Source of the DNA: a virus
Strand: one strand, 5' to 3'
DNA length: 24,541 bases
Virus record (IMG/VR): IMGVR_UViG_3300037264_002341
Coordinates: 1-24,541 of that record
In this document: positions 100 to 24,369 of the stretch, piece after piece
Position numbering within the stretch: the stretch's first letter is position 1
Layout: the number at the start of each line of letters is the position of its first letter
Notes under the pieces: model-generated
Told to the model about the DNA's origin: nothing
Database searches by the model: none
What the model saw: only the letters and a program-made list of their open reading frames with translations
Position numbers and translations under genes: made by a program

Positions 100-150
100 G
101 CGGAAGCAGGCCCAAAGTTGGGTGTCACAAACTTCCTGAAGGAGCAGGGC

Positions 151-4628: not shown

Positions 4629-5018
4629 ATGGAGCTGTTCTCAAAACTGGAGAAGGGCAACAAGATCATTGGGATCGTCGGCAGCCGAAGACGGGACACT
4701 GAAACCGACTTTCGCAAGGTCAAAGCTGCGTTAGGTCTGGTCTACAAAGGAGGGGACTGGATCTGTTCTGGCGGGTGTCTAAAGGGCGGGGACCGCTTCG
4801 CTTACAAACTGCACAAGATTCGTTGCATCCCATACTTAGAGTTCCCCGCGGACTGGAAGCAATATAGAAAAGCTGCGGGCTTCATCCGCAACAGTGACAT
4901 TGCCAAACACTCCGACATCCTCATTGCCTGCGTTGCGCAGGACAGAACGGGCGGGACGGAGGACACAATCCAGAAGTTCAAGAAGCATCATCCAGACGGC
5001 ATCGTAGTCTTAGTGTAA
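4629..5018 (+). CDS. SLOG-superfamily protein, DUF2493/YspA type
   Basis: The 129-residue protein matches the DUF2493 (YspA-like) branch of the SLOG Rossmann fold. Visible features are IGIVGSR at the N-terminal strand, CSGGCLKGGDRFAYK in the nucleotide-binding loop region, ADWKQYRKAAGFIRN, then SDILIACV and GGTEDTIQKF. Length is typical of the family. SLOG domains bind nucleotides or nucleotide-derived ligands; relatives include DprA and LOG enzymes, and phages often encode DUF2493 proteins of unsettled role. It starts one base after the stop of the LxRG gene. Confidence 0.85.
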   Translation: MELFSKLEKGNKIIGIVGSRRRDTETDFRKVKAALGLVYKGGDWICSGGCLKGGDRFAYKLHKIRCIPYLEFPADWKQYRKAAGFIRNSDIAKHSDILIACVAQDRTGGTEDTIQKFKKHHPDGIVVLV

Positions 5019-6571: not shown

Positions 6572-7717
6572 ATGTCTACAATTAAGTATGATAGACTAGA
6601 CGAGCCCATCGTCTTGTCAAAAGCTCTGTTAGATACCTTCCTGGAGCACCCGAAGGGCTCCGATCTGCTCGCCCTGTATACATTCTACTATTATACTGCC
6701 AAGTGGCAGAAGACTAATCAAGTGCGGGCCACCACTGCTTACACCATCAAAGCTCTCAACTGGAGTGAGGATCGAGTTCGCCGGGCCAAGAAAATTCTCA
6801 TAGAGAAGGAACTCATAAAAGACATTAGGAAAATTGATGAAAAAGGCCGGGTGGAGGGATACTTCATTAAAGTCAATTTCGTCTGGCGGAAAAACCAGCC
6901 TCCGGAAAAACCAGCCACTGGAGAATGCCAGTCCCTGGCCAATCAGGAGGGAAACTCTTTAAGTTCTAATAGTAGAAATGCTTTAAGTTCTAATAATGAA
7001 ATGCTTCCCCTCCTTCGGAGGGGGGTGCGGGGGGAGCTTCGAGATAAGTTTGAAGAGTTTTGGCAACGCTATCCACTGAAACGCAGGGGCAGCAAGGGAG
7101 AGGCTCTAAAGTCTTGGAAGAAAGTCTGCCGCCTTCCAGTAAAAGAACGTCCTACCTGGACTCAGATTAGAAGAGCTTTACACGATCAGAAAGAATCGGA
7201 ACGCTGGCAACAATCTGAGTTCATTCCGCTCGCCTCAACTTGGCTCAATAATAGCCGTTGGCTTGACGATCCAGAAGAGTTGCTTAGCTATGGCCCTCAT
7301 CAGAAGGGGGCCTCCAATCCTAAAACTCTCGCCTCCCCTTCAGAGATCACCAAACAACACTTCGGCGAGTATTATAAAAGCAAACTCAAAAACCTCATTC
7401 AACCTGCTATAGATTTGATGACCAATCCCACTCCGCAAGAAGAATCGGAGATGGCTCAAACTGTTTGCGATCTCTACAAGTGGTACGCAAAACATAGTTA
7501 CAAGCCTAATAGAGAAACCGATCCATATACGGAAATTCCTCTTACAAATGAGTTGGTGGAATGGTACATAGATTGGCTCTCAAAGCAAGGTCATTGGATC
7601 TCAGATATATCCGCCCGACACTTCAGTCCAGAAAGTGGAGTGTTCAAACGATTCCTTATTGAAATACAACACAGGGAGAGGCGTGACTTCCTTACTGGGC
7701 GGGCTATCACTAGATGA
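6572..7717 (+). CDS. Phage replication-initiation-like protein (winged helix plus DnaD/replication-protein-like domain)
   Basis: 381 residues in three parts. Residues 1-110 look like a winged helix: TTAYTIKALNWSEDRVRRA followed by a wing-like KGRVEGYFIKVNF. A linker at about 115-155 contains tandem-repeat and hairpin-derived sequence. The middle block FEEFWQRYPLKRRGSKGEAL and later FIPLASTWLNNSRWLDD is the signature seen in many phage replication proteins that act with a primase or helicase. The C-terminal 120 residues are helical and unassigned. A role in recruiting the DnaB-like helicase encoded downstream is inferred. The last four bases (ATGA) overlap the next gene. Confidence 0.72.
   Translation: MSTIKYDRLDEPIVLSKALLDTFLEHPKGSDLLALYTFYYYTAKWQKTNQVRATTAYTIKALNWSEDRVRRAKKILIEKELIKDIRKIDEKGRVEGYFIKVNFVWRKNQPPEKPATGECQSLANQEGNSLSSNSRNALSSNNEMLPLLRRGVRGELRDKFEEFWQRYPLKRRGSKGEALKSWKKVCRLPVKERPTWTQIRRALHDQKESERWQQSEFIPLASTWLNNSRWLDDPEELLSYGPHQKGASNPKTLASPSEITKQHFGEYYKSKLKNLIQPAIDLMTNPTPQEESEMAQTVCDLYKWYAKHSYKPNRETDPYTEIPLTNELVEWYIDWLSKQGHWISDISARHFSPESGVFKRFLIEIQHRERRDFLTGRAITR
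6958..7004 (+). repeat. Tandem duplication in the initiator linker
   Basis: Two adjacent copies of about 24 and 23 bases each begin with TTTAAGTTCTAATA (6958 and 6982) and end in GAAATGC. They encode LSSN twice in the linker. The 23-base second copy shows a one-base indel relative to the first. Confidence 0.7.
7007..7023 (+). repeat. GC-rich hairpin in the initiator linker
   Basis: CCCCTCC (7007-7013) and GGAGGGG (7017-7023) form a 7-bp stem with a TTC loop, followed by a G-rich tail to about 7035. In frame it encodes LPLLRRGVRGE. Similar C-rich/G-rich palindromes translated as PLLRRG-like peptides are, from memory, common as dispersed small repeats in bacterial genomes, so this may be an inserted small repeat tolerated in a linker. 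Confidence 0.5.
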
Positions 7718-8517
7718 ACCTTCTCAAGGAGGGTATAGAAGAAGCTGTTGAATTCATTCGGGCAAATGTCCGACAGGACTTGGCTTACGTGGCTTTCTCT
7801 GGAGGAAAAGACTCCATATGTCTAGCAAAACTTATGGATCTTTCCGGAGTTCCTTATCAACTTTACTATAGCCGCACGGGAATAGACCCACCAGAAGTGG
7901 TGAGGTTTATCCGTGAGGAATATCCAAAATGTCGCTTCCTGCGTCCGAAGATGGGAATGTGGACTCTGATTAGGATGAAGGGTTTTCCTCCGAGCAGGAC
8001 CAGAAGATATTGCTGTGATGTATTGAAAGAGCGCCCCACCAGACTCCGATTACAGAAAGAGTTGCGAATGCAACGTATTATGGGGATGCGAGCAGAGGAA
8101 AGTCCAAAACGAGCTACTTATCAAAGGGTTGCCCAGCGGAGCCGCCCCGACAAGTTTGAACGCCTTCTTCCCATCCTTTATTGGAAGGAGTGGATGATAT
8201 GGGAGCTGATTGAGAAGTATCAGTTATCTACTCCTATCTTGTACAAATGGGGTTTTGATCGAGTGGGGTGCGTAGTTTGTCCTTTTCATTCTAAAAAACT
8301 CCATAGCATGTATCGACGCCGTTGGCCTGGTTTCTTTCGGGTATTTGAAATGACCATGGCTCGGACCTGGCTTCGTAGGCAGGCAGATGGTAATAGGATG
8401 TTTCACAGTTCCCCCCAAGAGTTCATTCAGGACTGGTACCGCGACTCATGTGTAAGACTCTTTGCTCGCTCTGACGACGATCCGCTGAAGGTGAGGGGAC
8501 TGTTCTACAATGACTGA
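7714..8517 (+). CDS. PAPS-reductase-family PP-loop protein
   Basis: 267 residues. The PP-loop SGGKDS is at residues 29-34, the ATP-pyrophosphatase signature of PAPS reductase, ATP sulfurylase and tRNA thiolation families. Further family features are YYSRTGIDPPEVVRFI, RYCCDVLKE and GCVVCPFHS; the paired Cys motifs suggest an Fe-S cluster or sulfur-transfer residues. Phages often encode such proteins with unknown substrate; relatives include DndC, which acts in DNA phosphorothioation. There is no DndB/D/E or other sulfur gene here, so no pathway is assigned. It overlaps both neighbours (ATGA upstream, 8 bases downstream), indicating coupled translation with the initiator-like and helicase genes. 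Confidence 0.85.
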   Translation: MNLLKEGIEEAVEFIRANVRQDLAYVAFSGGKDSICLAKLMDLSGVPYQLYYSRTGIDPPEVVRFIREEYPKCRFLRPKMGMWTLIRMKGFPPSRTRRYCCDVLKERPTRLRLQKELRMQRIMGMRAEESPKRATYQRVAQRSRPDKFERLLPILYWKEWMIWELIEKYQLSTPILYKWGFDRVGCVVCPFHSKKLHSMYRRRWPGFFRVFEMTMARTWLRRQADGNRMFHSSPQEFIQDWYRDSCVRLFARSDDDPLKVRGLFYND

Positions 8518-11600: not shown

Positions 11601-12506
11601 ATGATGTTGTTTCTTGAACAACACTTCCTCGAACCAGAACGCCGGAAGCAAGCCGAATTTGCTGTGGTAGGAGCGGGTCTTATGGGCGCTACCATAGCAG
11701 AGATGCTACGATCTTGCGGATTGACTGGTGTTCTCCTGGACGATCCTTCCCCCTCGAATGAACCTGGAACCCGGGCTTGCGGAGGGCTTATCAAGCCTTC
11801 TCCCCTCTCAGGTCTCTCCTCAGAACAGACGAACAAATCCCTTGCTATACTTGACCGCTTCTTCGGCCTGCATCCGGAGACTCTGATCATTCGTCCGAGC
11901 GGGAATCTGATAAAGGCGAATGTTCAAGCAGTAAATATGGATCACATCTTCGCAGTCCCCCGAACCCCGGCCTTGGTGCACCGCGTCCACTCCGGAGTGC
12001 TACAATACCTCGATCAAAAAGACCGTATCGTGGAGTTAGAAAGCCCCTTGATCGTGGTGGCCGCAGGACCGGGAACACTAAACCTCTTCCCTCAGTTGAG
12101 AAGTTGTCTAGTAGTCAAACGGGGCTTCTCATTCCATATGAAAGGACGAGTCGCTCAGGGCTTCGTGAAGTTCTGGGCGCCCTACAAACAGGTTACGGTA
12201 CACAACACCCGCTTCGAGGGGGAGAAGATTGTATGGGCGGGTGAGGGGTCTGCCTTACGGCTTGAAAACTGGTATAGGGGGCGGATTCGGGAGGGACTAG
12301 CTCGTGTCCGGAAGGAGCTGCCTGAAAAGGAATATCCTCTCATCCGCACGGTGACGGGCCTCCGTCTGTTCCACCATCACCGTAAGCCTTGTTTCGTAGA
12401 GAAAATGGATAAAGGATTATATGTAGTAACCGCCGCTGGTAAGTTCGGATTGATCTCCGCCGGTTACGCTGCGATGGAGGTGGCCAAACATGAAAGACTT
12501 GCTTGA
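11601..12506 (+). CDS. FAD-dependent oxidoreductase (DAO/glycine-oxidase-like)
   Basis: 301 residues. The dinucleotide-binding motif VVGAGLMGATIAEML (GxGxxG at 24-29) followed by an acidic residue ending strand 2 (LLDD) marks an FAD Rossmann fold. The C-terminal RTVTGLRLF and the GLYVVTAAGKFGLISAGYAA segment match the end of D-amino-acid/glycine oxidase family proteins, where it contacts FAD. It is shorter than typical DAO enzymes (about 360-380), with a reduced substrate domain. It opens the metabolic cassette and overlaps the aldo/keto reductase gene by 17 bases. Substrate unknown; amines or amino-acid adducts are likely for the family. Confidence 0.8.
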   Translation: MMLFLEQHFLEPERRKQAEFAVVGAGLMGATIAEMLRSCGLTGVLLDDPSPSNEPGTRACGGLIKPSPLSGLSSEQTNKSLAILDRFFGLHPETLIIRPSGNLIKANVQAVNMDHIFAVPRTPALVHRVHSGVLQYLDQKDRIVELESPLIVVAAGPGTLNLFPQLRSCLVVKRGFSFHMKGRVAQGFVKFWAPYKQVTVHNTRFEGEKIVWAGEGSALRLENWYRGRIREGLARVRKELPEKEYPLIRTVTGLRLFHHHRKPCFVEKMDKGLYVVTAAGKFGLISAGYAAMEVAKHERLA

Positions 12507-13485
12507 GCGACTTCGGGATTACAAGAGTCTAGTGGATGCGAAGCGGGACCCAGAGATGTATGATTTCCTTTGGGGGGTCACTTGCCAAATTGGTTGTCGC
12601 CTCGGGGTGGATGAGTTTGTTCAGGAGTACGGCTGGCCGGGGCTTAAAGCGGTAGCCGAGCACCCCTTCCATCATGTCTATGTTAGCGATCCAGTCAAGA
12701 TCGAGCCTTACCGACCCCAACTGGCTATCGGCACTTACAGATGGAAATATGACCCAAAACCAATTTTGCTTGCCATTAAAAAAGGAGTGGATTTTATTGA
12801 CACTGCTCCTACCTATGGTTACGGCAAAGTGGAAGAGCGTCTGAAGGACGTGCTTACAGGAAAGAAGTTGGAGGTGGTAATAGGTTCCAAATTCGCTAGG
12901 AACAGGATGTCCTTCAACAACGTAGTCAGTTCCTGTAGGCGGACGGCCAAACGCTTCACGACTCTTCCGATCCACCTACAGCTCCATTGGCCGAATATAA
13001 AGTATCCTCTTCCTGAGGCACTACGGGCAATGCGATACTTGTTCAAGAATGGGGAAGTTGCTAGTCTCGGCGTCTGCAACATGTCGGTACCATTACTCCG
13101 TGTCGCCCGATCTTTGGCGCCTATCTCGACTGTTCAAGGACCGCTGAGCGTTTTCGTGCCTCAAGCCAAGGACTTTCTGTTGCCCTATTGCGAGAAAGAG
13201 GGGTTGACCTTCTTGGCTTACGGTCCTCTAGGTCAGGAGCCAAAAAAGCTCCTCCAGGAACGGGATCCAAAAGGCTTCTTCAAGAGGAAGGCCCGCGAAC
13301 TGAATTGCGAAGTCTCCCAAGTCCTCCTCGCGTGGGTCTGGGCTCAGGGGGCGGTCCCGATGCCCGCAACGAACAAGGTGGAACATATGAGAAGCAATCT
13401 TGACGCTCAGCAGGTGGACATGCCCCCCGACATCGTTCAGGAAATAAATGACTTCATGGAGAAAGCGGGGGCGGTGAGAAGTTAG
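12490..13485 (+). CDS. Aldo/keto reductase
   Basis: 331 residues, with GGAGGTGG six bases before the ATG. The (beta/alpha)8 NADPH-dependent reductase fold is shown by LAIGTYRW, FIDTAPTYGYGKVEERL and SLGVCNMS. The catalytic tetrad is complete: Asp104, Tyr109, Lys134 (IGSKF) and His166 (LQLHWPN). The C-terminal VLLAWVWAQGAVPMPATNKVEHM corresponds to the cofactor 2'-phosphate region. There is an extra N-terminal segment of about 70 residues (with WGVTCQIGCRLG) not usual in the family. It would reduce a carbonyl, perhaps one made by the FAD enzyme upstream. Such a gene is unusual in a phage replication region. Confidence 0.9.
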   Translation: MKDLLERLRDYKSLVDAKRDPEMYDFLWGVTCQIGCRLGVDEFVQEYGWPGLKAVAEHPFHHVYVSDPVKIEPYRPQLAIGTYRWKYDPKPILLAIKKGVDFIDTAPTYGYGKVEERLKDVLTGKKLEVVIGSKFARNRMSFNNVVSSCRRTAKRFTTLPIHLQLHWPNIKYPLPEALRAMRYLFKNGEVASLGVCNMSVPLLRVARSLAPISTVQGPLSVFVPQAKDFLLPYCEKEGLTFLAYGPLGQEPKKLLQERDPKGFFKRKARELNCEVSQVLLAWVWAQGAVPMPATNKVEHMRSNLDAQQVDMPPDIVQEINDFMEKAGAVRS

Positions 13486-14577
13486 ATGTCCTCCATATAC
13501 ATACCAAAAAGCCGGACGGGATTGAGTGTTCGAGGAGATTCATTGTATTGCCCCCTTGCCTTCACTCTTGATCCATATTGGTGGTGCGAGCCGGATTGTC
13601 TCCATTGTTATCTGCGTCGTCTCAACAAACTTTGGGGCACGGAACAGCGGGGGTTGAATTTAGAAAAGCTGGACCATCGCCTGTCTATGGGCCCTCTCAG
13701 GAAAAAACCAAAAACACCCCTAGCCAATTGTTTGGCAAACCGCAACACGATACGAGTGGGTAACAAAGCGGACCCCTTCCAACCGATAGAGCGGCAGCAA
13801 CGGTTGGCTACCCATTCCCTTCGACTTCTGTACAAATACCGATGGTCGTTTGTCATCCAGACCCGGTTTCCGGGGACGGTTCTGGACTTGGCCTCGACAA
13901 TCTTGGAGAAGTGCGTCCCACTCAATCTCGCTACTGTTATGCCCGTCATCTCTCCGGGGATGGAGCGAGATTGGGAACTGTTTGAGCAGAAGCGCACGGA
14001 GCCCATCAAAGAGCGTCTGAGGTCTATCAAAGACCTCATTAAGATAGGCGTGAATGTAGGAGTCAATGGAGAGCCCTTTATTCCGGGCTTCCATGTCCTT
14101 GGAGATTTCGAGGACACTTTGAAAAGGCTCAAAGCAATAGGAGTGAGTCGTTACAACACTTACAACTTACACTTCACCGAATTCGTAGCCAAGCGGATCC
14201 ACGATTTGCCAGGAGTAGATATAGAAAGGATATGGTATGAAAATCAAGACAAGCGTTGGCGCATTACCCTTACTAGGCTAATCGAGCTTGCAAAGAAACA
14301 CAACTTCATTCTCGGCTGTCCTGATTTCGTCAACTCCGGTCCCCGCCATCTGGAAGAGGCTAACACCTGTTGTGGAGTGGACGTTCCACGACCCACGACA
14401 TTCAATACGCACTATTTCAAACGTCTTGCTCAAAAGGGCTATGTAGCAGAGAGGATAGTCAAGTCCACTTGGGATGGAGTGGGAGACCTTGACCGGGGTC
14501 GAAAGATCATTCGGGGAGCTAAGACAGATTTTTACACCTTAAAAGACGCCGAGGTGAAGGTCAAGGAGAGTGGCTAA
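13486..14577 (+). CDS. Radical SAM enzyme, spore-photoproduct-lyase-like
   Basis: 363 residues. The 4Fe-4S site Cys34-x3-Cys38-x2-Cys41 lies in WWCEPDCLHCY. Downstream, RVGNKADPFQPIERQQRL followed by a TxxFPGT strand and a VMPVISPGMERDWE segment matches the SPL-like branch of radical SAM proteins, whose founding member acts on thymine lesions in DNA. A CCGVDVPRP segment near the C-terminus gives extra Cys. It begins directly after the stop of the reductase gene and shares one base with the next gene, so the cassette is translated as a unit. Substrate is unknown; a DNA base is possible by analogy with SPL. Confidence 0.85.
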   Translation: MSSIYIPKSRTGLSVRGDSLYCPLAFTLDPYWWCEPDCLHCYLRRLNKLWGTEQRGLNLEKLDHRLSMGPLRKKPKTPLANCLANRNTIRVGNKADPFQPIERQQRLATHSLRLLYKYRWSFVIQTRFPGTVLDLASTILEKCVPLNLATVMPVISPGMERDWELFEQKRTEPIKERLRSIKDLIKIGVNVGVNGEPFIPGFHVLGDFEDTLKRLKAIGVSRYNTYNLHFTEFVAKRIHDLPGVDIERIWYENQDKRWRITLTRLIELAKKHNFILGCPDFVNSGPRHLEEANTCCGVDVPRPTTFNTHYFKRLAQKGYVAERIVKSTWDGVGDLDRGRKIIRGAKTDFYTLKDAEVKVKESG

Positions 14578-15455
14578 TGAGTCTCCGAAGGAACACTCCT
14601 GTAGAGGAATATCCACTCGCCGTCCGCGTGTCCAACGTCCCGGTTAGGATAAGGGGGCCGGTAGATATTTTGGTCAAGCGAGAGGACCTTTGCTGCGATC
14701 CTCCGGGGCCTCCCTTCGCTAAGGTCCGGGGTCTCTTAATCCGCCTTCAGAATTTGAAAAGGCAAGGTCTTCACACTATTGGCTATATGGAAAACTCAAT
14801 CTCTATGAATGGCTGGGGAGTGGCCTGGACCTGTGCTGAATTAGGTATGCAAGCGGTCATCTATGACCCCCAATACAACTGCTATTCAGAGGTTCTGGAC
14901 TACCACCGCAAGCTTTGGAAGGAGCTTGGAGCTTTGATCCGGACAAATCCGGGGGGTGTATCCAAAGTGGATTTCGCCGTCTGCCGAGACACCTTTGAGA
15001 AGGAGTTCGGTCCAAATGCGACTCTGCTCTATCCCGGTCTGTCGTTCATCGAGACGGTGATCGCAACTGCAGAGGAAGTTGAGAGGACGATAAAACGTCT
15101 GAAGAAACGGGCGAAGACGGTTGTGGTCAACGTTGGAAGCGGGATTATTGCTGCTGGGATCTGGCGAGGTTTTGAGAAACATTGTCCGGATGTAATCATA
15201 CACGGCATCATGGGACACTCGGGAGACTTAACCCGGAAGATGAATGACATCGAGAAGAATTCCGGACTCCTCCATCAAAAGCAACTCCGATCCAAGTTTG
15301 TACTCCATGATCCCGGTTGGAAATACACCGAACCAAGCGAAGTTCCAAGTCCCTTCCCCTGTAATCAATTCTATGATTTGAAGGCGTGGGAGTGGCTTGT
15401 TCAAAATTTTCATAGGCTCGATGAACCGATCCTCTTCTGGAACATTGGGGCATAG
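14577..15455 (+). CDS. PLP-dependent enzyme, fold type II (ACC-deaminase/Trp-synthase-beta-like)
   Basis: 292 residues. The segment DILVKREDLCCDPPGPPFAK resembles the N-terminal part of fold-type II enzymes, with Lys49 in FAKVRG the likely Schiff-base lysine. SMNGWGVAWTCAELGMQAVI matches the substrate/cofactor loop and helix, and NVGSGIIAAGIWRGF replaces the glycine-rich phosphate-binding loop. It is slightly short for the fold. Relatives carry out beta-elimination, deamination or replacement on amino acids. It lies between two radical SAM genes, sharing one base with the first (TAATGA). Substrate unknown. Confidence 0.75.
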   Translation: MSLRRNTPVEEYPLAVRVSNVPVRIRGPVDILVKREDLCCDPPGPPFAKVRGLLIRLQNLKRQGLHTIGYMENSISMNGWGVAWTCAELGMQAVIYDPQYNCYSEVLDYHRKLWKELGALIRTNPGGVSKVDFAVCRDTFEKEFGPNATLLYPGLSFIETVIATAEEVERTIKRLKKRAKTVVVNVGSGIIAAGIWRGFEKHCPDVIIHGIMGHSGDLTRKMNDIEKNSGLLHQKQLRSKFVLHDPGWKYTEPSEVPSPFPCNQFYDLKAWEWLVQNFHRLDEPILFWNIGA

Positions 15456-15457
15456 TC

Positions 15458-15994
15458 ATGGACTATTTTGAGCTAAGACGCCTCGTCAGCCGGATCGTTC
15501 CCCGTATGACCCAACTTCAAGTGTCCAAACGGAAGGTGGACGCGGTGAAGGAGAAGGGGCGCAAGAAGAACTATCATCAATTCAACCTGCGCGATGGGGA
15601 ATGGCGGAAGCAGGAACGGCTTCTGAATACCGAGGCCATCAACTCCTTCCTGGAAATCTCGGTGAGAGCGGCAGCCTGCCCGATGCCCTTCAATATGGAC
15701 ATTTGGGACGGGCTTCTCTGTGTTGCGGAAGGGCAACGGGTCCAGACCTCTGATGGAAAAGTTCCTATCGAGAAAGTCAAGGCTTGTGATGTTGTCTGGA
15801 CTTTCAACGAGGAGGAACAGCGCCGCCAACTGGCTCGGGTAACTCAAATCTCTAACACCATTCGAAAGAACCTGGTTGAAGTTGAGACCGAAGAGGGGAC
15901 CATCCGGTTAACTGAAGACCACCGAGTGCTTACCCAACGGGGTTGGATTCCTGCGGGGCAACTTACGGAAGAAGACCTGATGTATGTCTGGTAA
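15458..15994 (+). CDS. Radical SAM enzyme N-extein fused to split intein N half
   Basis: 178 residues. Residues 1-87 are the N-extein of a second radical SAM protein, ending WDGLL. Cys88 (nt 15719) begins an intein: block A CVAEGQRVQTSDGKVPIEKV and block B RLTEDHRVLT with the TxxH signature, then a stop at 15992 soon after GWIPAGQL. The intein N half is 91 residues. The C-extein is encoded 0.8 kb downstream in the same frame (16796-18076), where IntC ends HN followed by Cys. This half lacks the Fe-S cysteines and cannot be an active enzyme alone. The full 473-residue protein needs trans-splicing. The stop overlaps the endonuclease gene by 11 bases. Confidence 0.93.
   Translation: MDYFELRRLVSRIVPRMTQLQVSKRKVDAVKEKGRKKNYHQFNLRDGEWRKQERLLNTEAINSFLEISVRAAACPMPFNMDIWDGLLCVAEGQRVQTSDGKVPIEKVKACDVVWTFNEEEQRRQLARVTQISNTIRKNLVEVETEEGTIRLTEDHRVLTQRGWIPAGQLTEEDLMYVW
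15719..15991 (+). mobile_element. Split intein, N-terminal half (IntN)
   Basis: 91 residues from Cys1 to the residue before the stop codon, with blocks A and B. Together with the 40-residue IntC this gives a 131-residue mini-intein, the size of known natural split inteins. Confidence 0.92.
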
Positions 15995-16814
15995 GCTCTG
16001 TAAATGCGGTTGTGGAATTCCCATCCCTTTCGGCTCAACCTGGGCAAAGGGACACAACCGTCGGGGGGAGAAGCACTCGAAGGCCGCTCTCCAGAAGATG
16101 CGAGAAGCCCGACTGGGAAACACCCCTTGGAATAAAGGGAAGCCCAGAACTGAAGAAGAGAAGGAAGCGATGCGGCGGGGCATCTCTACAGAAGAGCGGG
16201 AGAGGCGTTCCAAAAGGACAACGAGAGGTTGGAAGGAAGGTCGGTACGATTTCATGAATGGCAAGACTAACCCGGCCTGCCGTCCGGAGGTCGCTACCAA
16301 AATAGGGGAAGCCAACAAAGGCCGGATTATCTCGAAAGCTACCAGACACAAGTTGAGTAAATCCCGCCTGGGGAAACCCGGCCAGGTCGTCTCGGAGAGG
16401 GTAAAGAAGCTCCACTCCAAACGGATGAAGAAGGACAATCCCATGTATCACAAGGACGTTCTTCAAAATCATCCGGTCCTCCGAGGGGGAAGGTACTACA
16501 TTTCCATCGGAGAGAACAAGGTGGCCGGGCTTCTGACCGAGATGGGGATAGCCTTTGAGAGGCAAAAGCTCCTCCGCAAACAGGTCGGCTACTACGTTGC
16601 GGACTTCTTCTTAACCGGCCACGACGCAATAATCGAGTTTGACGGGCACTATTCTCATGTAGAGAACGCGGAGAAGGACCGTCAGCGAGACTGCTATCTC
16701 TTGAGAAGATACGGCTACCGAACTCTGCGCTTGGTGTCCATGGATCTGAACAATAGGAACAGAGAAGACCTTATCCAGAAGATACGGGAGTTTCTATGGA
16801 ACTCAAACCAGTAA
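15984..16814 (+). CDS. Free-standing homing endonuclease between the split intein halves
   Basis: 276 residues. The N-terminus has a Cys motif (CKCGCG) and several NUMOD3-like segments (GHNRRGEKHSKAALQKMREA, LGNTPWNKGKPRTEEEK, GRIISKATRHKLSKSRLG), which are DNA-binding repeats of phage homing endonucleases. The C-terminal nuclease is Vsr/DUF559-like (EDxHD group): GENKVAGLLTEMGI, YYVADFFL, AIIEFDGHYSH, then KDRQRDCYLLRRYGYRTLRL. The Glu, Asp and His-Asp residues expected for the group are all present. It should cut an intein-free allele of the radical SAM gene. Its start overlaps IntN by 11 bases and its end overlaps IntC by 19, so all three cistrons are coupled. It is in the +1 frame relative to the halves. 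Confidence 0.88.
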   Translation: MSGKLCKCGCGIPIPFGSTWAKGHNRRGEKHSKAALQKMREARLGNTPWNKGKPRTEEEKEAMRRGISTEERERRSKRTTRGWKEGRYDFMNGKTNPACRPEVATKIGEANKGRIISKATRHKLSKSRLGKPGQVVSERVKKLHSKRMKKDNPMYHKDVLQNHPVLRGGRYYISIGENKVAGLLTEMGIAFERQKLLRKQVGYYVADFFLTGHDAIIEFDGHYSHVENAEKDRQRDCYLLRRYGYRTLRLVSMDLNNRNREDLIQKIREFLWNSNQ

Positions 16815-16915
16815 AGGTGAAACGGGTCCGCAAGATTCCAGGGGAGTATCGAGTGTACGATATCACCGTGGACCGCAACTCCAACTTCTTCGCGGAGGGG
16901 CACCTAGTTCACAAC
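16796..16915 (+). mobile_element. Split intein, C-terminal half (IntC)
   Basis: 40 residues with blocks F and G, ending in His-Asn just before Cys+1 at 16916. It provides its own start codon and ribosome binding site. Confidence 0.92.
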
Positions 16916-18076
16916 TGTCCCTTTGCTTGTATCTATTGCTACGCGAATTCCTTTAGGGCCAGTCTTTACACGGCCTTCTTCGACAACTCGAAGACCATGG
17001 GATTCCGTCATTGCAATCCCACCTACTACAAGAAGGAGATGGACAAGATGTTGAAATTCCGCTCTCTCCCATTCTCGGAGAAGCGGACGCTAACAGGCAT
17101 TAACAAAGCCTTCGCCCTTGATATTCCCGTCCGCATGGGTATCCGCTTCGAGGACTTCCTGCGAAATGAGCAGAGGGCCGGAGTCAGTCTGGAGATGTTG
17201 AACTACCTAGCTGATATTAGTTATCCGATCATGATCAACACGAAGTCCTACATTCCAGGACAGGACGCCTACGTGAAAGCTCTCTCTCGAAACGAGGCCG
17301 GAGCGGCTATTCACGTCACTGTCATCTCCTGCAATGAGGAGATACTACGAAAGTTGGAGCCTGGGGCACCATCCTACAAACGGCGGCTGGAGACGATGAG
17401 GAATCTCTGCTCTGCAGGGGTGCGGGTAGTCGCTCGGATCGAGCCCTATCTGTTCCTTCTCACTGATGATCCGGACGACCTGAAGCAATATATGGAAGAG
17501 GTGTATGGAACCGGGGTAAGGCATATCACATTCGACACCTACTCTTACACGGCCCAAAATCCAGGGATTCGTCAGGCCTTTATCAATGTGGGATATGACT
17601 ATGACCGTCTTTTCCTCGCCGGATGCGATAGCCAACCACTTGGAAGCCTTCTTTTGGCTAAATTTATGGACCTGTTTAGAGCTAGGGGATTTTTCTGCTC
17701 TACATTCGATATGGGAAATGTTCCTAGTAACGACCAAGCCATCTGCTGCGAAGTAGGAGACTGGTTCAAGGGGGGCTTCAACTACGGCTGCACCGTTATG
17801 GCGGCTCGGTTCATCCGAGACCAGTCCAAGAAGCTCGGTCCCAATATGGGAGTCTGCTGGTCGGACTTTGTATATTGGGTCGTTAAAAGGGGAGGCTTCC
17901 TCACCCCCGAACTACAACGGATGGTCCACGAACTCTGGAACCTCGGGGGAAATGTTGCTTACAGCCCTCGTTGGGCTCAGGGGCTAGTTCCTTGCGGAAT
18001 GGACGACGACGGCCTCATCTGGATCCATGAACCGAGCCGCGATCATCGGCAAACTCTCTTGGAGGAATTGATATGA
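16796..18076 (+). CDS. Split intein C half fused to radical SAM C-extein
   Basis: 426 residues, with GGGAG five bases before the ATG. Residues 1-40 are IntC: block F YRVYDITVDRNSNFFAEG and block G HLVHN. Residue 41 is both the +1 Cys for splicing and the first Cys of the radical SAM cluster CPFACIYCYA (Cys41, 45, 48). The rest is SPL-like: VRMGIRFEDFL, a YPIMINTKSYIPG strand, HVTVISCNEEILRKLEP with GAPSYKRRLETM, and VVARIEPYLFLL. A late CC motif (AICCEVGDWF) may hold a further cluster. Without splicing it would carry the cluster but lack 87 N-terminal residues. It shares ATGA with the next gene. Confidence 0.93.
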   Translation: MELKPVKVKRVRKIPGEYRVYDITVDRNSNFFAEGHLVHNCPFACIYCYANSFRASLYTAFFDNSKTMGFRHCNPTYYKKEMDKMLKFRSLPFSEKRTLTGINKAFALDIPVRMGIRFEDFLRNEQRAGVSLEMLNYLADISYPIMINTKSYIPGQDAYVKALSRNEAGAAIHVTVISCNEEILRKLEPGAPSYKRRLETMRNLCSAGVRVVARIEPYLFLLTDDPDDLKQYMEEVYGTGVRHITFDTYSYTAQNPGIRQAFINVGYDYDRLFLAGCDSQPLGSLLLAKFMDLFRARGFFCSTFDMGNVPSNDQAICCEVGDWFKGGFNYGCTVMAARFIRDQSKKLGPNMGVCWSDFVYWVVKRGGFLTPELQRMVHELWNLGGNVAYSPRWAQGLVPCGMDDDGLIWIHEPSRDHRQTLLEELI

Positions 18077-18255
18077 GTCCCGCTATTGCCATCCCGAAGG
18101 ACAAATGCAACAACTGTCACTTTCGACCCTATCTGGACGATGCCTGGCGCTGCGGATGGTATCGCCGCCCGTTGACTCCTCGACAGGTTCGGGGAACCTC
18201 ACATAAACCGTTCTGGTGTAAACTACTTGCGGCCATAGGACAGGAGAGATCATGA
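18073..18255 (+). CDS. Small four-cysteine protein, probably zinc-binding
   Basis: 60 residues with Cys12, Cys15 (CNNC), Cys27 and Cys49, a spacing that could bind zinc or an Fe-S cluster. It overlaps the radical SAM gene upstream and the next gene downstream, each by ATGA. Basic C-terminal half. No family recognised; its coupled position suggests a partner of the radical SAM protein. Confidence 0.65.
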   Translation: MSPAIAIPKDKCNNCHFRPYLDDAWRCGWYRRPLTPRQVRGTSHKPFWCKLLAAIGQERS

Positions 18256-19043
18256 AGATTGACAATTTGGTGGAGGACCTCTTCTCTCACGCGGTGGCTT
18301 TAGACCAGAGTGGGGGACTGCGCAATACCATCTATGCTCTAGGAAAGGAAATCTTCATACTCAACTATGACTATACGGTATTGCTTCGCTTTCTTCTCAG
18401 GAAGTCTGAGGCCCCATTCCATGATCACATTTCCTTCCGCGCCAACGACTATGACAGTCGTGAATTCGAGGAACGGGACGGAATGATCGTCTTCACGAGT
18501 CAGAATGATCGTTACACTCGCCGCAAGAGTTGCGGGACACCGGACCTCCCTCCAGAGGACGTCAAAGCCCTCTACCGGCGGTATGCGGCGGTGGAGGAGG
18601 ACAAGAGCTTCGAGGTTGAAATTCACAAAGATGTTCTGTCCCTCTTGGATCGAGACCTGAGTCACATCGAGTTCCGTGGCAAGAAGGGGGATCCAATCAA
18701 GCTCGTCCAACGCAACATTTACTCAGGGGCCATCATCGAGATCGAGGAGAGGTTGGCGGGTCTGTTCAAAGCTTGTCTTGCCCCTCGGAACTTCGGCCCT
18801 CTGGCTCTGAGGACTCCAGACTTCGCGGCTCTGTTTGCCTTCCAAGACTTGCTAAGGTTCAACTTTCCTCTGGACAATAGACACGGCGACTTCATCCGGG
18901 TGGATAGCATCGACAAGAACAAGCGAGACATGACGGGCTTCATTGCCTGTTGTCTATATGATGAGATCATCGAAATCTTAGCTAGTGATATCCGGAAAAC
19001 CAAGCAGATAGTGGTAGACGAAATATTGAAAAGGAGGAAGTGA
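18252..19043 (+). CDS. Hypothetical protein, unknown
   Basis: 263 residues, soluble and mixed alpha/beta. Visible segments include KEIFILNYDYTVLLRFLLR, HISFRANDYDSREFEERDG, a Tyr/Arg-rich stretch and a hydrophobic helix (GFIACCLYDEIIEILASDI) near the C-terminus. Strand-rich central segments loosely recall sliding-clamp-like modules, but this is too weak to assign. It starts by ATGA overlap and is followed after a single base by the small basic gene, so it belongs to the same operon as the radical SAM cassette. Confidence 0.7.
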   Translation: MKIDNLVEDLFSHAVALDQSGGLRNTIYALGKEIFILNYDYTVLLRFLLRKSEAPFHDHISFRANDYDSREFEERDGMIVFTSQNDRYTRRKSCGTPDLPPEDVKALYRRYAAVEEDKSFEVEIHKDVLSLLDRDLSHIEFRGKKGDPIKLVQRNIYSGAIIEIEERLAGLFKACLAPRNFGPLALRTPDFAALFAFQDLLRFNFPLDNRHGDFIRVDSIDKNKRDMTGFIACCLYDEIIEILASDIRKTKQIVVDEILKRRK

Positions 19044-19044
19044 G

Positions 19045-19191
19045 ATGGCCGGAGGTAAGTCAAGGAAGTCTGGCGGCGTCTCGAAGGCCCTCATCGAGAA
19101 GATCAAGAGGGGAGACTACTCCAAGAAGTCCTGCGGGACCAAGAAGAAGAAGGGGTCTGAGCTTGAACTTGTACCTGAAAAGACTAAGTGA
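19045..19191 (+). CDS. Small basic protein, 48 residues
   Basis: AAGGAGG with seven bases of spacing precedes the ATG at 19045. The product is very basic (GGKSRKSGGVSKALIEKIKR, then CGTKKKKG) with one Cys. Codons lean towards G/C endings. It may bind nucleic acid, but no family is recognised. Its end overlaps the start of the next gene in another frame. Confidence 0.65.
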   Translation: MAGGKSRKSGGVSKALIEKIKRGDYSKKSCGTKKKKGSELELVPEKTK

Positions 19192-19927
19192 GCTGAACGT
19201 CAAGCCTAACTTCTTTGTGAGCCGTCCGCTTCTCACTCTCTTTGGAGCGCGACCCAGAGAGAATGACCAATGGCTCTGGCTAGAAGACAAGGAGGAAATC
19301 TGTCTTTTGCCGCCCCTCCCGAAGGGGGGACATACCGGAGGCTGGCCGGTCGATTTCGTCTGGGCAGATTTCGATGATTTCCCACCTCCCGAGGGTGAAC
19401 GGAAGTTCCTAGATCACGAGTATCTGTTCCGGCCCGCCGACTTCCTAACCATGGAGGGGGGGAAGTGGCAGGCTTTCAGGAAGAACAGTCGCAAATGGCC
19501 GAGGGGTCGCAAATGGCGAATGTCATACACCACGAGGCCCGGGAAGGCGCTGGACCGTCTAGTAGCCCGTTGGTTGAGCAAGCGCCCTAATATGGAAGGG
19601 GCCGAGGCCCTGGCCTCCATGGTCCTTAATCCTTCCTTTGGAGTACAGAGAGCTTGCCTATATCTGTATTCAAGTCATTTGGTGGCGGTGAATGTTTGGG
19701 ACTACAATCATATGTTTATCAATTACCGCTATTGCATCTGTCCGGATGAACCATATTTAGATGAATTCATGCGATTGCAATTCTATCTCGGGATGAATCA
19801 GATCCATCCGGGCATGCTAGTAAATGACGGAGGCTCAGTAGGGCAACCTGGGATCGAGGCTCACAAAGACAGAATGAACCCGTTCCGTAAGCGAGAGGTC
19901 AGATCGTGGTCATTGATACGTCCCTAA
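19163..19927 (+). CDS. DUF2156-like (GNAT-fold) acyl or aminoacyl transferase
   Basis: 254 residues if started at TTG 19163, which has AAGGGG seven bases upstream; the frame is open further upstream but overlaps the basic gene there. HEYLFRPADFLTMEGGKWQ followed by FRKNSRKW resembles the (D)YLYxxxDLxxLxGxxxxxKRNxxNxF motif of the DUF2156/phosphatidylglycerol lysyltransferase C-terminal family. VNDGGSVGQPGIEAHKDRMN near the end resembles the matching NxxxDxGxxGLRxxKxxxxP motif. These enzymes use aminoacyl-tRNA or acyl-CoA donors. The protein has no membrane segments, so lipid is an unlikely acceptor. It ends the metabolic cassette. Confidence 0.55.
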   Translation: MNLYLKRLSELNVKPNFFVSRPLLTLFGARPRENDQWLWLEDKEEICLLPPLPKGGHTGGWPVDFVWADFDDFPPPEGERKFLDHEYLFRPADFLTMEGGKWQAFRKNSRKWPRGRKWRMSYTTRPGKALDRLVARWLSKRPNMEGAEALASMVLNPSFGVQRACLYLYSSHLVAVNVWDYNHMFINYRYCICPDEPYLDEFMRLQFYLGMNQIHPGMLVNDGGSVGQPGIEAHKDRMNPFRKREVRSWSLIRP

Positions 19928-20127
19928 CAGGCAAAATTACTCATAGGTGCTCGTGCGGGCAGGCTAACGGTATGAAAATGCCGGACGGGAAGAAACTGAT
20001 AAAGTCCATCCAGTTGATTATTATTCATCCGGATGGGCTAGTTGAAGGGGAATGTATTAAATGTAAGAGAAGGACAACCCTTCCATTACGATTCGCTCCA
20101 ATCAAAACTCAAAGGAGGGAAGGATGA
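19906..20127 (+). CDS. Small zinc-ribbon protein
   Basis: 73 residues from a GTG at 19906 with GAGAGG seven bases upstream. CSCG near the N-terminus and CIKC near the C-terminus frame a small beta ribbon, typical of zinc ribbons in transcription or replication accessory proteins. It overlaps the transferase gene by 22 bases and the clamp gene by ATGA. No specific family recognised. Confidence 0.65.
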   Translation: MVIDTSLTGKITHRCSCGQANGMKMPDGKKLIKSIQLIIIHPDGLVEGECIKCKRRTTLPLRFAPIKTQRREG

Positions 20128-21146
20128 AGATCAAGAGGCTAGAGTTGTTGGAGGCTCTGGAGATAGTCAGACCCGGACTGGCTACTGGCAAGGAAGTGAT
20201 AGAACAGTCAAGCTCATTCGCCTTCCGGGGAGGGCGAGTGATTACCTACAATGATGAGATCAGCATCGCTCATAAAATTGAGGGGATGGACCTCGAAGGG
20301 GCGATCAAGGCGGAGGAACTCTATCAGTTGCTAGGCAAGATCAAGGCAGAGGAGATCTCAATAGCAACCACGGACAATGAACTCCGGATCAAGGCAGGGC
20401 GCTCCAGAGCCGGAATCAAACTCCAGACCGAGATCAAATTGCCTCTGGATGAGATTAGTGAGATAGGGGACTGGGAGCCAATACCAGAAGACCTTATCCC
20501 CAATCTCAGCATGGCTCTACCTTGCGTAGGCCGGGAAGCTTCCCGACCCGTCCTACAAAATATCCACATACGGAAGGATGGGAAAGTTGAAGCTTCTGAT
20601 AGCCTTCGAGCCATCCAGTGTGTCGGCACGGAGTTGCCCATCCCAACTTGCCTCATTCCCGGTTCCACCGTTCGAGAGTTGATTCATTACCCGCTTACCG
20701 AGATGTCTCATAATCAGGGATGGCTCCACTTCAAGACGAAACAGGGGACAATCATCTCCTGCCGAACCGTGAATGACAACTATGTGAACGTGGATGAGGT
20801 TATCCACGTGAAGGGGGAGGAGATCCACCTTCCCGATAATCTCGGAGAGATTCTGGAGAAGGCGGCCATCTTCGTCAAGGGCGATAAGGCGGTCAAGGAA
20901 GAAGTGGAGATCAGGTTCGCCGAAGGCAAGATGGTTATTCGAGGGGAAGGAAACTATGGATGGTTCCAAGAACAGGCTGATCTGGATTACAAGGGTGAGG
21001 AAGTGACAATCACCGTCAATCCAACAATGCTCAAGACCATTGCCTCTAAGGTGAAACGCTGCGTGCTCGGAGAGAACAGTATGCGTTTCGATGGCGAGAG
21101 CTGGATTTACATCGTTGCTCTGACTACTATGAAAGAAGGAAGGTGA
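20124..21146 (+). CDS. dnaN: DNA polymerase sliding clamp (beta/DnaN-like)
   Basis: 340 residues, slightly shorter than bacterial DnaN (about 366). The N-terminal domain has the strand-helix pattern of a clamp and SIATTDNELRIKAGRS, the equivalent of the DnaN segment preceding the first domain boundary. The middle domain has SMALPCVGREASRPVLQNIH, a good match to the DnaN sequence where domain 2 begins (F..vAfAvs.De.rpvLnGv). The third domain ends SWIYIVALTTMKEG, in place of the DnaN C-terminal YVVMPMRL. A phage-encoded ring clamp would tether the family A polymerase and other proteins to DNA. It overlaps the zinc-ribbon gene by ATGA, and the clamp loader begins at 24381. Confidence 0.82.
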   Translation: MKIKRLELLEALEIVRPGLATGKEVIEQSSSFAFRGGRVITYNDEISIAHKIEGMDLEGAIKAEELYQLLGKIKAEEISIATTDNELRIKAGRSRAGIKLQTEIKLPLDEISEIGDWEPIPEDLIPNLSMALPCVGREASRPVLQNIHIRKDGKVEASDSLRAIQCVGTELPIPTCLIPGSTVRELIHYPLTEMSHNQGWLHFKTKQGTIISCRTVNDNYVNVDEVIHVKGEEIHLPDNLGEILEKAAIFVKGDKAVKEEVEIRFAEGKMVIRGEGNYGWFQEQADLDYKGEEVTITVNPTMLKTIASKVKRCVLGENSMRFDGESWIYIVALTTMKEGR

Positions 21147-21581: not shown

Positions 21582-21692
21582 ATGGACGCAGCAAGTTTCT
21601 TGGCGGGGTTAATTCTCGGTTTGTGCCCCGGTGCCGTAATTGGTGTCCTTCTTTTCCTGTATTTGAGGGAGTACATAAATAAGTGCAAATAG
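21582..21692 (+). CDS. Tiny single-span membrane peptide
   Basis: 36 residues with AAGGA six bases upstream of the ATG. One hydrophobic helix (FLAGLILGLCPGAVIGVLLF) is followed by a basic tail (LREYINKCK). It overlaps the next gene by 10 bases. Too short to assign; position between the clamp and polymerase genes gives no functional clue. Confidence 0.5.
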   Translation: MDAASFLAGLILGLCPGAVIGVLLFLYLREYINKCK

Positions 21693-22954
21693 GCTTATTC
21701 AGCAAACAAGAGACCGCTTCCAAATTTCGTCCTGATGGGAAGGGTCACACCTGCGCCAAATGCGGTCTCTACAAGTACGTCATCAGTCCCCGAATGAAGC
21801 CCTACGGAGACTTCAAGAAAGGAATCCTCAACATAGGGGAGGCTCCGGGGGAACATGAGGACCGACGGGGCAAACAATGGCAAGGGAAAACGGGTCGAGC
21901 TTTGAAGGCGATGTACGACAGTCTTGGTATTAACCTGTTCAAGGATTGTATCAATATTAATGCCATCAATTGCCGACCCACTAAAGATTCAGGCAACCGA
22001 GAGCCGGAAGACGAGGAGATCACATCCTGCCGGAGGCGCGTGTTCGAGGTTATAGACGAGTACAAACCAAAACTTATCATGCTCTTTGGGGGGTGTGCCG
22101 TCAAAAGTGTCATCGGCTCTCGGTGGACTAAGGATTTGGGAGGCATCTCAAGATGGCGAGGCTGGACCATCCCTGATCGGGAACTGAATGCTTGGATCTG
22201 TCCCGTCTTCCATCCGAGCTATGTAGAGCGCGGAGAAGCTCAGATTGAGGTCATATGGGAAAAGGATTTGCGCCGCGCTTTCCGAAAGATAGGCAAACCC
22301 ATTCCCGAATTCATAGATGAGCGGACACAGATCGAGATACTTACGAATCCCAAAGACATTCGGCGGATGCTCATAGATGTAATGCAAGGCACCCCCTTCC
22401 ATCCCTACTTTGTGGCCTTCGACTATGAGACAACGGGAATGAAGCCACAACGGAAGGGACACAAGATCATCTGCGCCTCAGTATGTGCAGAACCGGGCAA
22501 GGCTTACGCCTTTATGATGATGGAGGAAATCTGGAGAATTTGGCGAGTATTCCTCCGGAGTGACATAGGCAAGATAGCACAGAACCTAAAACACGAAGAC
22601 AATTGGTCAAAGGTCCTCCAGAAAACGGACGTCAAGAATTGGGCCTGGGATCCAATGCTGGCTGCTCGATTACTCGCCGGAAGGCCGGGTTGCGCTTCAT
22701 TGAAATTCCAAGCCTATGTTCGATACGGTCTGCCCAACTGGCAATATGATTGGGTTGAGGACTTCCTAGAAATGGAGGACAACAAGGATGGTAATTCATT
22801 CAACCGGATTGAGGAACTGGTAAAAAGCGAGAGGGGGCAAAGAATGCTCTTGGAATATTGCGGGATTGACGGTCTGAAGACTCTGCCCCTCTCCTTAGAA
22901 CAAATGCAAGAAATGGGATTGGATCCCGAGAAGATTGCCCGAGGGATTCTATAA
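21683..22954 (+). CDS. Fusion of uracil-DNA glycosylase (family 4/5-like) and 3'-5' exonuclease
   Basis: 423 residues from GTG 21683. Residues 1-200 form a UDG with GEAPG at 52-56, four cysteines in the family 4 Fe-S pattern (24, 27, 97 in NCRP, 116) and HPS at 177-179. Residues 240-420 form a DnaQ/Pol I-type exonuclease: Exo I FDYETTG (Asp247, Glu249), Exo II AQNLKHED (Asp306) and Exo III YCGID (Tyr-x3-Asp). The polymerase domain is the next gene, so the proofreading part of a family A polymerase has been separated from it and fused to a uracil-removing enzyme. The N-terminus MQIGLF contains a QxxLF clamp-binding-like peptide. The start lies inside the membrane peptide gene. Confidence 0.88.
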   Translation: MQIGLFSKQETASKFRPDGKGHTCAKCGLYKYVISPRMKPYGDFKKGILNIGEAPGEHEDRRGKQWQGKTGRALKAMYDSLGINLFKDCININAINCRPTKDSGNREPEDEEITSCRRRVFEVIDEYKPKLIMLFGGCAVKSVIGSRWTKDLGGISRWRGWTIPDRELNAWICPVFHPSYVERGEAQIEVIWEKDLRRAFRKIGKPIPEFIDERTQIEILTNPKDIRRMLIDVMQGTPFHPYFVAFDYETTGMKPQRKGHKIICASVCAEPGKAYAFMMMEEIWRIWRVFLRSDIGKIAQNLKHEDNWSKVLQKTDVKNWAWDPMLAARLLAGRPGCASLKFQAYVRYGLPNWQYDWVEDFLEMEDNKDGNSFNRIEELVKSERGQRMLLEYCGIDGLKTLPLSLEQMQEMGLDPEKIARGIL

Positions 22955-22956
22955 TT

Positions 22957-24369
22957 GTGAGCTACGCCACCGCATACGACGCCTATCAACTTTTTCACAA
23001 AGGTGCTCAAGCTCTCGCTAGAGCAGAGCGGGCCGGAATCCGTCTAGATGTGGAGAGTTGCGAGAAGCAGTCTCGACATTTGAAGCGCCGGATCGGCAAA
23101 CTGAAGGAGGATTTCGAGGAGACCAAATTTTATCGGCGCTGGAGTCACATATTTGACTCAAAGACCAAGATCAATAGTGATGATCAATTACGTCATATGC
23201 TCTATAACGTAATGAAGATGCCTCCTCCTACGACCACCGATTCTGGGAAAGGATCCACCAATGAGGAAAGCCTACTTCAACTCACAACCGACGTTCCTGA
23301 GTTGGAGACGCTTCTACAGATAAGAAAGCTACAGAAGGGGCGGACTACATACCTGCAAGCCTTCCTGCGAGAGCAGGTAGACGGCTTTATTCATCCTTCA
23401 ATTAACCTTCATATACCTTGGACTTACCGATCCTCAATGGACCGTCCTAATCTACAAAACGTGTCGAAGCGGGACAAGGAGATGAAAAAGATTGTCCGAA
23501 GTGTCCTGTTCCCGCGCTTTGGACATCAATTAGGCGAGTTCGACTTCAGTGGAATTGAGGTGGCAATAGGGGCATGCTATCACAAAGATCCAACTATGTT
23601 AAAGTATATCAAAGACAAGACCACGGATATGCACCGGGATATGGCCATCCAATGTTACCTGCTAGATTATTTCGACAAGGACATCCCCGTTCATAAAAAT
23701 GTCCTCCGCCAGGGAGGGAAAAATGGTTTCGTGTTCCCTCAATTCTATGGAGATTACTATGGGAATTGCGCTAGAAACCTTGCCAAGTGGGTTAAGATGC
23801 ACCTCACAGGGAAATGGAAGAAAGGACAAGGGATCGAACTCTCCGAGGGCTACCATATATCCGATCATCTGATATCGAAAGGAATCAAAAGCTTCGACGA
23901 CTTTGAACAGCACATCAAAGAGGTAGAAGCAGATTTCTGGGGGCGGCGGTTCAAAGTCTACGCGGAATGGAAGGAAGAAACCTGGGAAGAATATCAAAGA
24001 AAGGGATACATAGACTTCTACACCGGCTTTCGCTGTTCTGGAGTATTTGACAAACGACAAATTCTGAATGCGCCCATCCAAGGGACCGCCTTCCATTGTC
24101 TCCTCTGGAGCTTTGTCCGGACGGACGAGACTATGCTAAAGGAAGAGTGGGAAACGAGACTTATCAACCAAGTTCATGATTCTATGATGCCCGATATTCA
24201 ACCAAAGGAACTTGAGCACGTAGCGAAAACAATACACCGGATAGGGACGGTGGAGCTTCCGAAGGCTTGGGATTGGATCATCGTTCCTCTTGAGATCGAA
24301 GCGGACGTTGGAGCTGTAGATGCTTCTTGGTACGATCTGGAACCTTATCAGTTCACAAAGGCGGCATAA
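22957..24369 (+). CDS. polA: Family A DNA polymerase, polymerase domain only
   Basis: 470 residues from GTG 22957, with GAGGGA upstream. It lacks an exonuclease domain, which is in the gene before it. The palm/fingers motifs are visible: WTYRSSMDRPNLQNV (the R-x-SS-x-PNLQN signature), motif A EFDFSGIE (Asp196), motif B RQGGKNGFVFPQFYG (Arg251, Lys255) and motif C VHDSMMPD (His407, Asp408). Motif C has Ser where most Pol I enzymes have Glu, and motif B has one more residue than usual between Lys and Tyr-Gly. Both catalytic Asp are present. A long charged segment at about 275-360 separates motifs B and C. It is likely the phage replicative polymerase. Confidence 0.92.
   Translation: MSYATAYDAYQLFHKGAQALARAERAGIRLDVESCEKQSRHLKRRIGKLKEDFEETKFYRRWSHIFDSKTKINSDDQLRHMLYNVMKMPPPTTTDSGKGSTNEESLLQLTTDVPELETLLQIRKLQKGRTTYLQAFLREQVDGFIHPSINLHIPWTYRSSMDRPNLQNVSKRDKEMKKIVRSVLFPRFGHQLGEFDFSGIEVAIGACYHKDPTMLKYIKDKTTDMHRDMAIQCYLLDYFDKDIPVHKNVLRQGGKNGFVFPQFYGDYYGNCARNLAKWVKMHLTGKWKKGQGIELSEGYHISDHLISKGIKSFDDFEQHIKEVEADFWGRRFKVYAEWKEETWEEYQRKGYIDFYTGFRCSGVFDKRQILNAPIQGTAFHCLLWSFVRTDETMLKEEWETRLINQVHDSMMPDIQPKELEHVAKTIHRIGTVELPKAWDWIIVPLEIEADVGAVDASWYDLEPYQFTKAA

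Follow-up and report, generated by a model that had tools for sequence, protein, structure and literature searches.

In the thymidine hypermodification pathways of phages M6 and PaMx11, a kinase and an amino-acid DNA transferase (ADDT) put an amino acid on 5-hydroxymethyl-deoxyuridine (5-hmdU), and radical S-adenosylmethionine (SAM), pyridoxal phosphate (PLP) or flavin adenine dinucleotide (FAD) enzymes then reshape the adduct. The DNA of M6 contains 5-NedU (PMC6449724, PMC11946847). Here, we describe a viral locus with relatives of these tailoring enzymes, namely a PLP enzyme, a flavin lyase and radical SAM enzymes, in the IMG/VR record IMGVR_UViG_3300037264_002341; the window analyzed is this entire record, a genome fragment of 24,541 b. 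The locus is a run of plus-strand genes at 11601-19927, with overlapping or abutting open reading frames (ORFs), flanked by a DnaB-like helicase on one side and a processivity clamp and PolA on the other. All features given below are on this strand. An earlier reading of the DNA (the original prediction) had listed coupled genes set among replication genes, all of which are present in this run, and had proposed that they remodel a modified base. The proposal stands insofar as the PLP and FAD enzymes have their nearest relatives, among phages and solved structures, in thymidine-hypermodification cassettes and the radical SAM enzymes are distantly related to M6 gp53; the modified base and its chemistry we infer from sequence. 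On balance, we favor, by somewhat more than an even chance, the reading that an uncultivated lineage of tailed phages uses this cassette for the post-replicative hypermodification of DNA bases, with thymine as the most likely target and by an alternative amino-acid route.

Relatives were collected from IMG/VR with the FAD enzyme, the two radical SAM enzymes and the protein encoded at 18252-19043, and a search of GTDB genomes with radical SAM 2 matched three contigs binned into metagenome-assembled genomes and no others. The contigs were placed in 64 groups by shared exact 100-mers, which keeps near-identical contigs from being counted more than once; these groups do not include the window. Of these groups, 39 span the interval from the helicase to the clamp or PolA, with the 25 others left out of the counts. 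Each group was fetched by a match to one gene (a core gene or the FAD enzyme), which is therefore necessarily present in it, and the test lies in the remaining core genes. Our analysis showed a fixed core of radical SAM 1, radical SAM 2, a second sliding-clamp-fold protein and a DUF2156-like transferase in 39 of the 39 spanning groups. The PLP, FAD and aldo/keto reductase (AKR) genes are interchangeable around this core: the PLP enzyme occurs in 19/39 groups, AKR in 9/39 and a DUF362 gene in 3/39. An amidoligase gene is found in one group and a GNAT/FemAB-like gene in three, accessories that fit amino-acid chemistry. Genes seen in the cassette region of individual contigs code for Amidoligase_2 (L029:8262-9179), an RtcB RNA ligase (L025:11140-12318) and a D12 DNA methyltransferase (L013:11143-11901). 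Throughout the collected contigs, the cassette lies between replication genes and not in a small-molecule operon, in line with the DNA-directed role originally proposed. One relative, G031 (74,972 b), is probably a complete genome, because it shows a direct terminal repeat of 114 b, a partial second copy of which lies close by, and has genes for a terminase, a portal and a tape measure protein; it carries the core plus AKR and a gene of the unassigned family C17. Its terminase was recognized through PHROGs instead of Terminase_6N, a search with which gave 0/18 records.

Profile searches for ADDT, the kinases and TET/JBP hydroxylases covered 30 of 39 records (the window and 29 of its 38 relatives), with nine mostly short ones left out. 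ADDT (PF18724) was found in none of the 30, nine of which are 51-172 kb long, and the control matched in 3/3 known phages. The 5-hmdU DNA kinase models PF18748 and PF18723 each gave 0/30 records, in searches without a positive control. Further, tblastn with the ADDT and kinase proteins of M6, Sonora and PaMx11 found none in the flanks of the 64 groups. Thymidylate synthase (TS; PF00303) was found in one of the 38 related records and is not among the genes of the window, which is a fragment. ThyX was detected in 1/42 records (three of these being M6, Sonora and PaMx11), namely in G031, which has ThyX alone, with no match to TS, ADDT, HMUDK or HMUDK_hel. The ThyX gene lies at the end of this probably complete genome (contig L069 corresponds to that end). 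The absence of the early enzymes from the window, as first observed there, thus extends to the related records. The search for TS and DNA kinases elsewhere in the genome that had been suggested earlier was run on those records and contig groups, and gave TS homologues in 1/38 records and 2/64 groups and no kinase match. A search for a TET/JBP hydroxylase as an alternative start gave 0/30 records, but there was no match in the controls either.

The tailoring enzymes, by comparison, have recognizable relatives. The FAD enzyme (11601-12506; Pfam DAO, E 2.5e-10) is related to the PaMx11 gp47 flavin-dependent lyase: it matches the PDB entries 8z2o and 8z79 ("Flavin-dependent lyase") with E-values of 1.2e-28 and 1e-27, is 30% identical to PaMx11_47 and has KPS, WAPYxQ and Lys281 in common with it in a six-sequence alignment. 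The cassettes in which it has relatives in Sonora, PaMx11 and Rhizobium phage TM26 contain TS; weak sub-threshold matches to ThiO and MnmC were also seen. The fold-type II PLP enzyme (14577-15455; Pfam PALP, E 1.7e-12) is 36% identical to M6 gp52, with Lys49 and 26 other positions invariant across 15 sequences including M6 and Pam3; a PDB sequence search with it gave no match. It matches 66 cultured phage records, among which the full-cassette annotation comprises M6 and Pseudanabaena phage Pam3. In both, the PLP gene has a radical SAM "photolyase" gene as its neighbor, with aGPT-Pplase/ADDT, kinase-like and TS genes not far away. In Rhizobium phage I72, the PLP match is near the record end, with mostly unnamed neighbors. 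The AKR (12490-13485; Pfam, E 5e-30) is accompanied in all ten groups that have it by either the FAD enzyme (two groups) or family C17 (eight groups), a constant pairing that suits a product-reducing role.

The two radical SAM enzymes are related to each other (hhalign E 2e-27), belong to one common PHROG, and are both related to M6 gp53 (hhalign E 2e-12 for radical SAM 1 and 1e-5 for radical SAM 2). The cysteines of the CxxxCxxC motif are invariant in both of their alignments (A3 and A4), these being C34, C38 and C41 of radical SAM 1 (13486-14577) across the 27 sequences of A3. Radical SAM 1 matches the NCBIfam model rSAM_PA0069 at 3.9e-16, which is under the cut-off of that model, and has no match in the Pfam scan; the ORF encoding the C-terminal part of radical SAM 2 (16796-18076) matches Pfam Radical_SAM with E 6.7e-7. 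Taken together, the two scans yielded matches to general radical SAM models and, below threshold, to rSAM_PA0069/Rv2578c, and nothing else. Neither enzyme matched an SPL family model in them; hence, the "SPL-like" label given earlier survives as a superfamily-level resemblance, and membership of the SPL family itself was dropped. PDB sequence searches with both profiles gave no match, and against 50,697 cultured phage records each enzyme had one or two weak partial matches. Three contigs (L022, L026 and L031) have, in place of radical SAM 1, a divergent radical SAM gene (22-23% identity) beside the DUF362 gene and upstream of radical SAM 2.

Radical SAM 2, previously read as a single gene, is instead a split-intein fractured gene at 15458-18076, of which the N-terminal part and an endonuclease had escaped the original gene list. 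The N-terminal ORF (15458-15994) comprises an 87-aa N-extein (15458-15718) and an IntN (15719-15991) that starts with Cys88 and has a TxxH motif, with Pfam matches to Hint_2 and Intein_splicing. Between the intein halves is a free-standing homing endonuclease (15984-16814; Pfam NUMOD3 1.9e-7, DUF559 1.5e-9). The C-terminal ORF (16796-18076) consists of a 40-aa IntC ending in HN (16796-16915; Intein_splicing 6.4e-6) and the C-extein. IntC ends in LVHN and is followed by CPFACIYC, which makes the first Cys of the radical SAM CxxxCxxC motif the +1 extein residue; intact relatives read through this point uninterrupted in the alignment. Cys1, TxxH, HN and the +1 Cys are all kept, with IntN and IntC in separate ORFs. 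An intein is seen in the window and in 5/61 contig groups with radical SAM 2 (some groups cover the gene only partly), at Cys1, Cys3 or both, giving three break patterns at two sites. The layout of the window, with three ORFs (IntN, endonuclease, IntC), recurs in L113 and L144; in L098, IntN and the endonuclease are fused and IntC is separate; the split intein of L006 and L021 sits at the third cysteine, and its endonuclease-like part is fused to IntC; and L016-L018 combine an uninterrupted mini-intein at Cys1 with a split intein at Cys3. We rejected a sequencing error as the source of the split because other contigs share the same or related layouts and the catalytic intein residues are kept. 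Radical SAM 2 is thus, as judged from its sequence, encoded in pieces to be joined by predicted protein trans-splicing.

The core protein encoded at 18252-19043 had been listed as an unknown protein. An AlphaFold2 model of it, built on 29 aligned relatives (pLDDT 84), shows a two-domain clamp fold, with a Foldseek match to PCNA at 5e-8, a Z-score of 15.3 against PCNA (root-mean-square deviation [rmsd] 4.2 over 214 aligned residues) and one of 14.7 against the T4 clamp. Going by this model, the product is a putative second sliding clamp, because 20124-21146 encodes a separate replicative processivity factor (phrog_947, 7e-29). It has 0 matches among the 50,697 cultured phage records. Upstream of it is an ORF for a 60-aa protein with four Cys (18073-18255), which has neither a Pfam nor a PHROG match. 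Downstream, a 48-aa ORF (19045-19191) codes for a small basic protein (MAGGKSRKSGGVS...), for which the relatives have a MGGKSRKSGGVS start; full-length relatives are present in 7/16 of the relatives' intervals examined and partial ones in two more. These relatives often end in LFD, LFG or LFE, a motif that the window copy does not have; such endings resemble clamp-binding peptides.

The last core gene codes for the DUF2156-like dual-GNAT transferase (19163-19927). The mechanically called start at 19040 makes the ORF too long, and a TTG at 19163, the probable start, agrees with the relatives. The protein has no Pfam match and 0 matches among the 50,697 cultured phage records, and its profile reaches the DUF2156 structure 2hqy at E 0.0035. 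Its AlphaFold2 model (pLDDT 94.5) lies close to 2hqy (Z 21.6, rmsd 2.8, 249 aligned), followed by MprF/A-PGS (Z 13.8-15.3), Sba18/Sbb17, which are peptide synthases dependent on aminoacyl-tRNA (13.1-13.8), and FemX (13.1). The DUF2156-like assignment is thereby borne out at the level of fold, and to it is added a fold link, missed earlier, to the MprF/FemX-type aminoacyl-tRNA-dependent transferases. While fold shows no function, the order of these matches favors an aminoacyl-tRNA donor for the modelled protein. In the portions of the published work that we could consult on DNA modification with aminoacyl-tRNA, or on DUF2156 with phages or radical SAM, none was recognized as this system.

A possible mechanism can be pieced together from these parts, the order of its steps being a guess. 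The second clamp would tether the cassette enzymes to DNA, and one radical SAM enzyme might activate the thymine methyl group. The DUF2156-like enzyme would then supply an amino acid, perhaps from aminoacyl-tRNA, in place of the 5-hmdU kinase/ADDT route. The other radical SAM enzyme may rearrange the adduct, the role presumed for M6 gp53, and radical SAM 2 would be active only once protein trans-splicing restores its [4Fe-4S] motif. Finally, the side chain could be trimmed, with the PLP enzyme decarboxylating, the FAD enzyme cleaving or oxidizing, and the AKR reducing the resulting carbonyl. In its most specific form, as aminoacyl-tRNA-fed base charging in which a clamp-tethered DUF2156-type transferase and two thymine-activating radical SAM enzymes replace the 5-hydroxymethyl-dU/pyrophosphate/ADDT route, with product diversity coming from swappable PLP, FAD and AKR enzymes, the scheme is tentative and would more probably fail than hold.

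Several observations weigh against a hypermodification cassette with its own amino-acid route. None of these phages has a known modified base, nearly all related records are fragments, the accessory genes searched for are all absent from 7/39 groups, and G031 is without PALP and FAD genes. The kinase profile searches had no in-tool positive control, and the TS homologue in 2/64 contig groups together with ThyX in G031 makes a source of 5-hydroxymethyl-dU possible. The likeness of the radical SAM enzymes to M6 gp53 is weak, at about 21% identity; acetyl-CoA GNATs appear at Z of about 10-12 in the same list as the transferases, such that an aminoacyl-tRNA donor does not follow from the fold; and the second clamp might simply take part in replication. 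Some of these points suit an ordinary M6/PaMx11-type system, of which the cassette would be the tailoring part, with the genes for 5-hmdUMP synthase, 5-hmdU kinase and ADDT at another place in the genome or too divergent to be recognized. The PALP, FAD and radical SAM enzymes are indeed common to the M6/PaMx11 systems, and the rare TS homologues come from a set of records that are mostly fragments. Nevertheless, the failure to find ADDT in any of the 30 records with a working control, or ADDT and kinases in the flanks of any of the 64 groups, and the apparently complete G031 without these enzymes make this explanation unlikely.

Still less probable is a cassette that modifies RNA or protein, its enzymes acting on host or phage tRNA or on a peptide. 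The known aminoacyl-tRNA-dependent transferases among the fold matches do act on lipids, peptides or antibiotics, and the ThiO and MnmC matches of the FAD enzyme, weak and sub-threshold as they are, would be in keeping with it; however, the linkage to helicase, clamp and polymerase, the clamp-fold protein in the core, and the DNA-hypermodification cassettes that house the closest FAD and PLP relatives all point to DNA. Were the radical SAM enzymes instead to undo thymine photoproducts, and the other enzymes to have unrelated roles, the cassette would serve DNA repair, for which clamp association and the SPL-type superfamily resemblance would be apt. We consider this highly improbable, given that no SPL family model matched and that the two radical SAM enzymes always occur with the transferase and shuffled amino-acid-type enzymes, a combination that biosynthesis fits better. 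A toxin or defense reading was also discarded, with no convincing match of the cassette proteins in PADLOC; the sole one was of the PLP enzyme to AbiTi, at 1.7e-4.

The replication neighbors in the window comprise a primase, a replication initiator, the DnaB-like helicase, the processivity factor and PolA. The last is split over two ORFs at 21683-24369 and is a single ORF in L002 and L039; in L017 (L017:16744-19149), it has an interruption of ~1 kb, possibly a further intein or an intron. The motif II of a SNF2-type helicase at 118-3117 contains an intein (LDE/C...VHN/CQF) that is uninterrupted (cis) and that L003 and other relatives do not have. A PAPS-reductase-like protein (7714-8517) matches, in PADLOC, BrxP at 3e-28 and, weakly, SspD/DndC, as well as phrog_424; in L098 and L162, its relatives are found close to the cassette. 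The ORF at 4629-5018 has a weak match to a YspA/SLOG-like family (1.9e-4).

Should the proposed hypermodification route prove true, substrates of translation would feed a covalent modification of DNA. Two central pathways would thereby be linked in a new way, and there would be a new route to bulky thymines, a block to host nucleases. With its swappable tailoring genes, the lineage would then be a reservoir of new DNA side chains. Independently of this, radical SAM 2 is a naturally occurring test case for the way in which mobile inteins make use of a catalytic cysteine, and its family is a source of new natural split inteins.

The comparison with known systems differs from one component to another. 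Dassa et al. in 2009 reportedly described fractured genes, in which the halves of a split intein have a homing endonuclease between them. Radical SAM 2 is like these in its IntN ORF, free-standing endonuclease and IntC ORF and in the Cys1, TxxH and HN/Cys motifs; it differs in that the host gene is a radical SAM enzyme, with the break at a cysteine of the catalytic cluster. The entry of inteins into such enzymes has a precedent, because NCBIfam already catalogs NF038136, an intein-containing Rv2578c-family radical SAM; the window's match to that model is far below the cut-off, and the likeness concerns the presence of an intein in a related radical SAM family, with no split arrangement implied. 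In the parts of the literature seen by us on inteins with radical SAM in phages, or on Rv2578c with an intein, nothing was recognized as this system. The second clamp has the two-domain fold of PCNA, T4 gp45 and the 9-1-1 clamps (Z about 14-15), unlike which it has no sequence family match and is present besides a separate processivity factor. Similarly, the transferase shares its dual-GNAT fold over the whole chain with DUF2156 2hqy, MprF/A-PGS, FemX and Sba18/Sbb17, and is set apart from them by the absence of a Pfam match and of a membrane part and by its place in a replication region. The FAD enzyme is of the same family as PaMx11 gp47 (8z2o, 8z79), with the KPS, WAPYxQ and Lys281 positions conserved at the modest identity noted above; in contrast to gp47, its gene is coupled to an AKR and has no gp46-type ADDT beside it. 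The M6/Pam3 cassette, of the 5-NedU type in M6, is alike in its PLP family, its adjacent radical SAM gene and its setting among replication genes. In contrast to it, the cassette described here comes with no detectable ADDT and rarely with TS, and has two radical SAM enzymes, joined in its core by a second clamp-fold protein and a DUF2156-like transferase.

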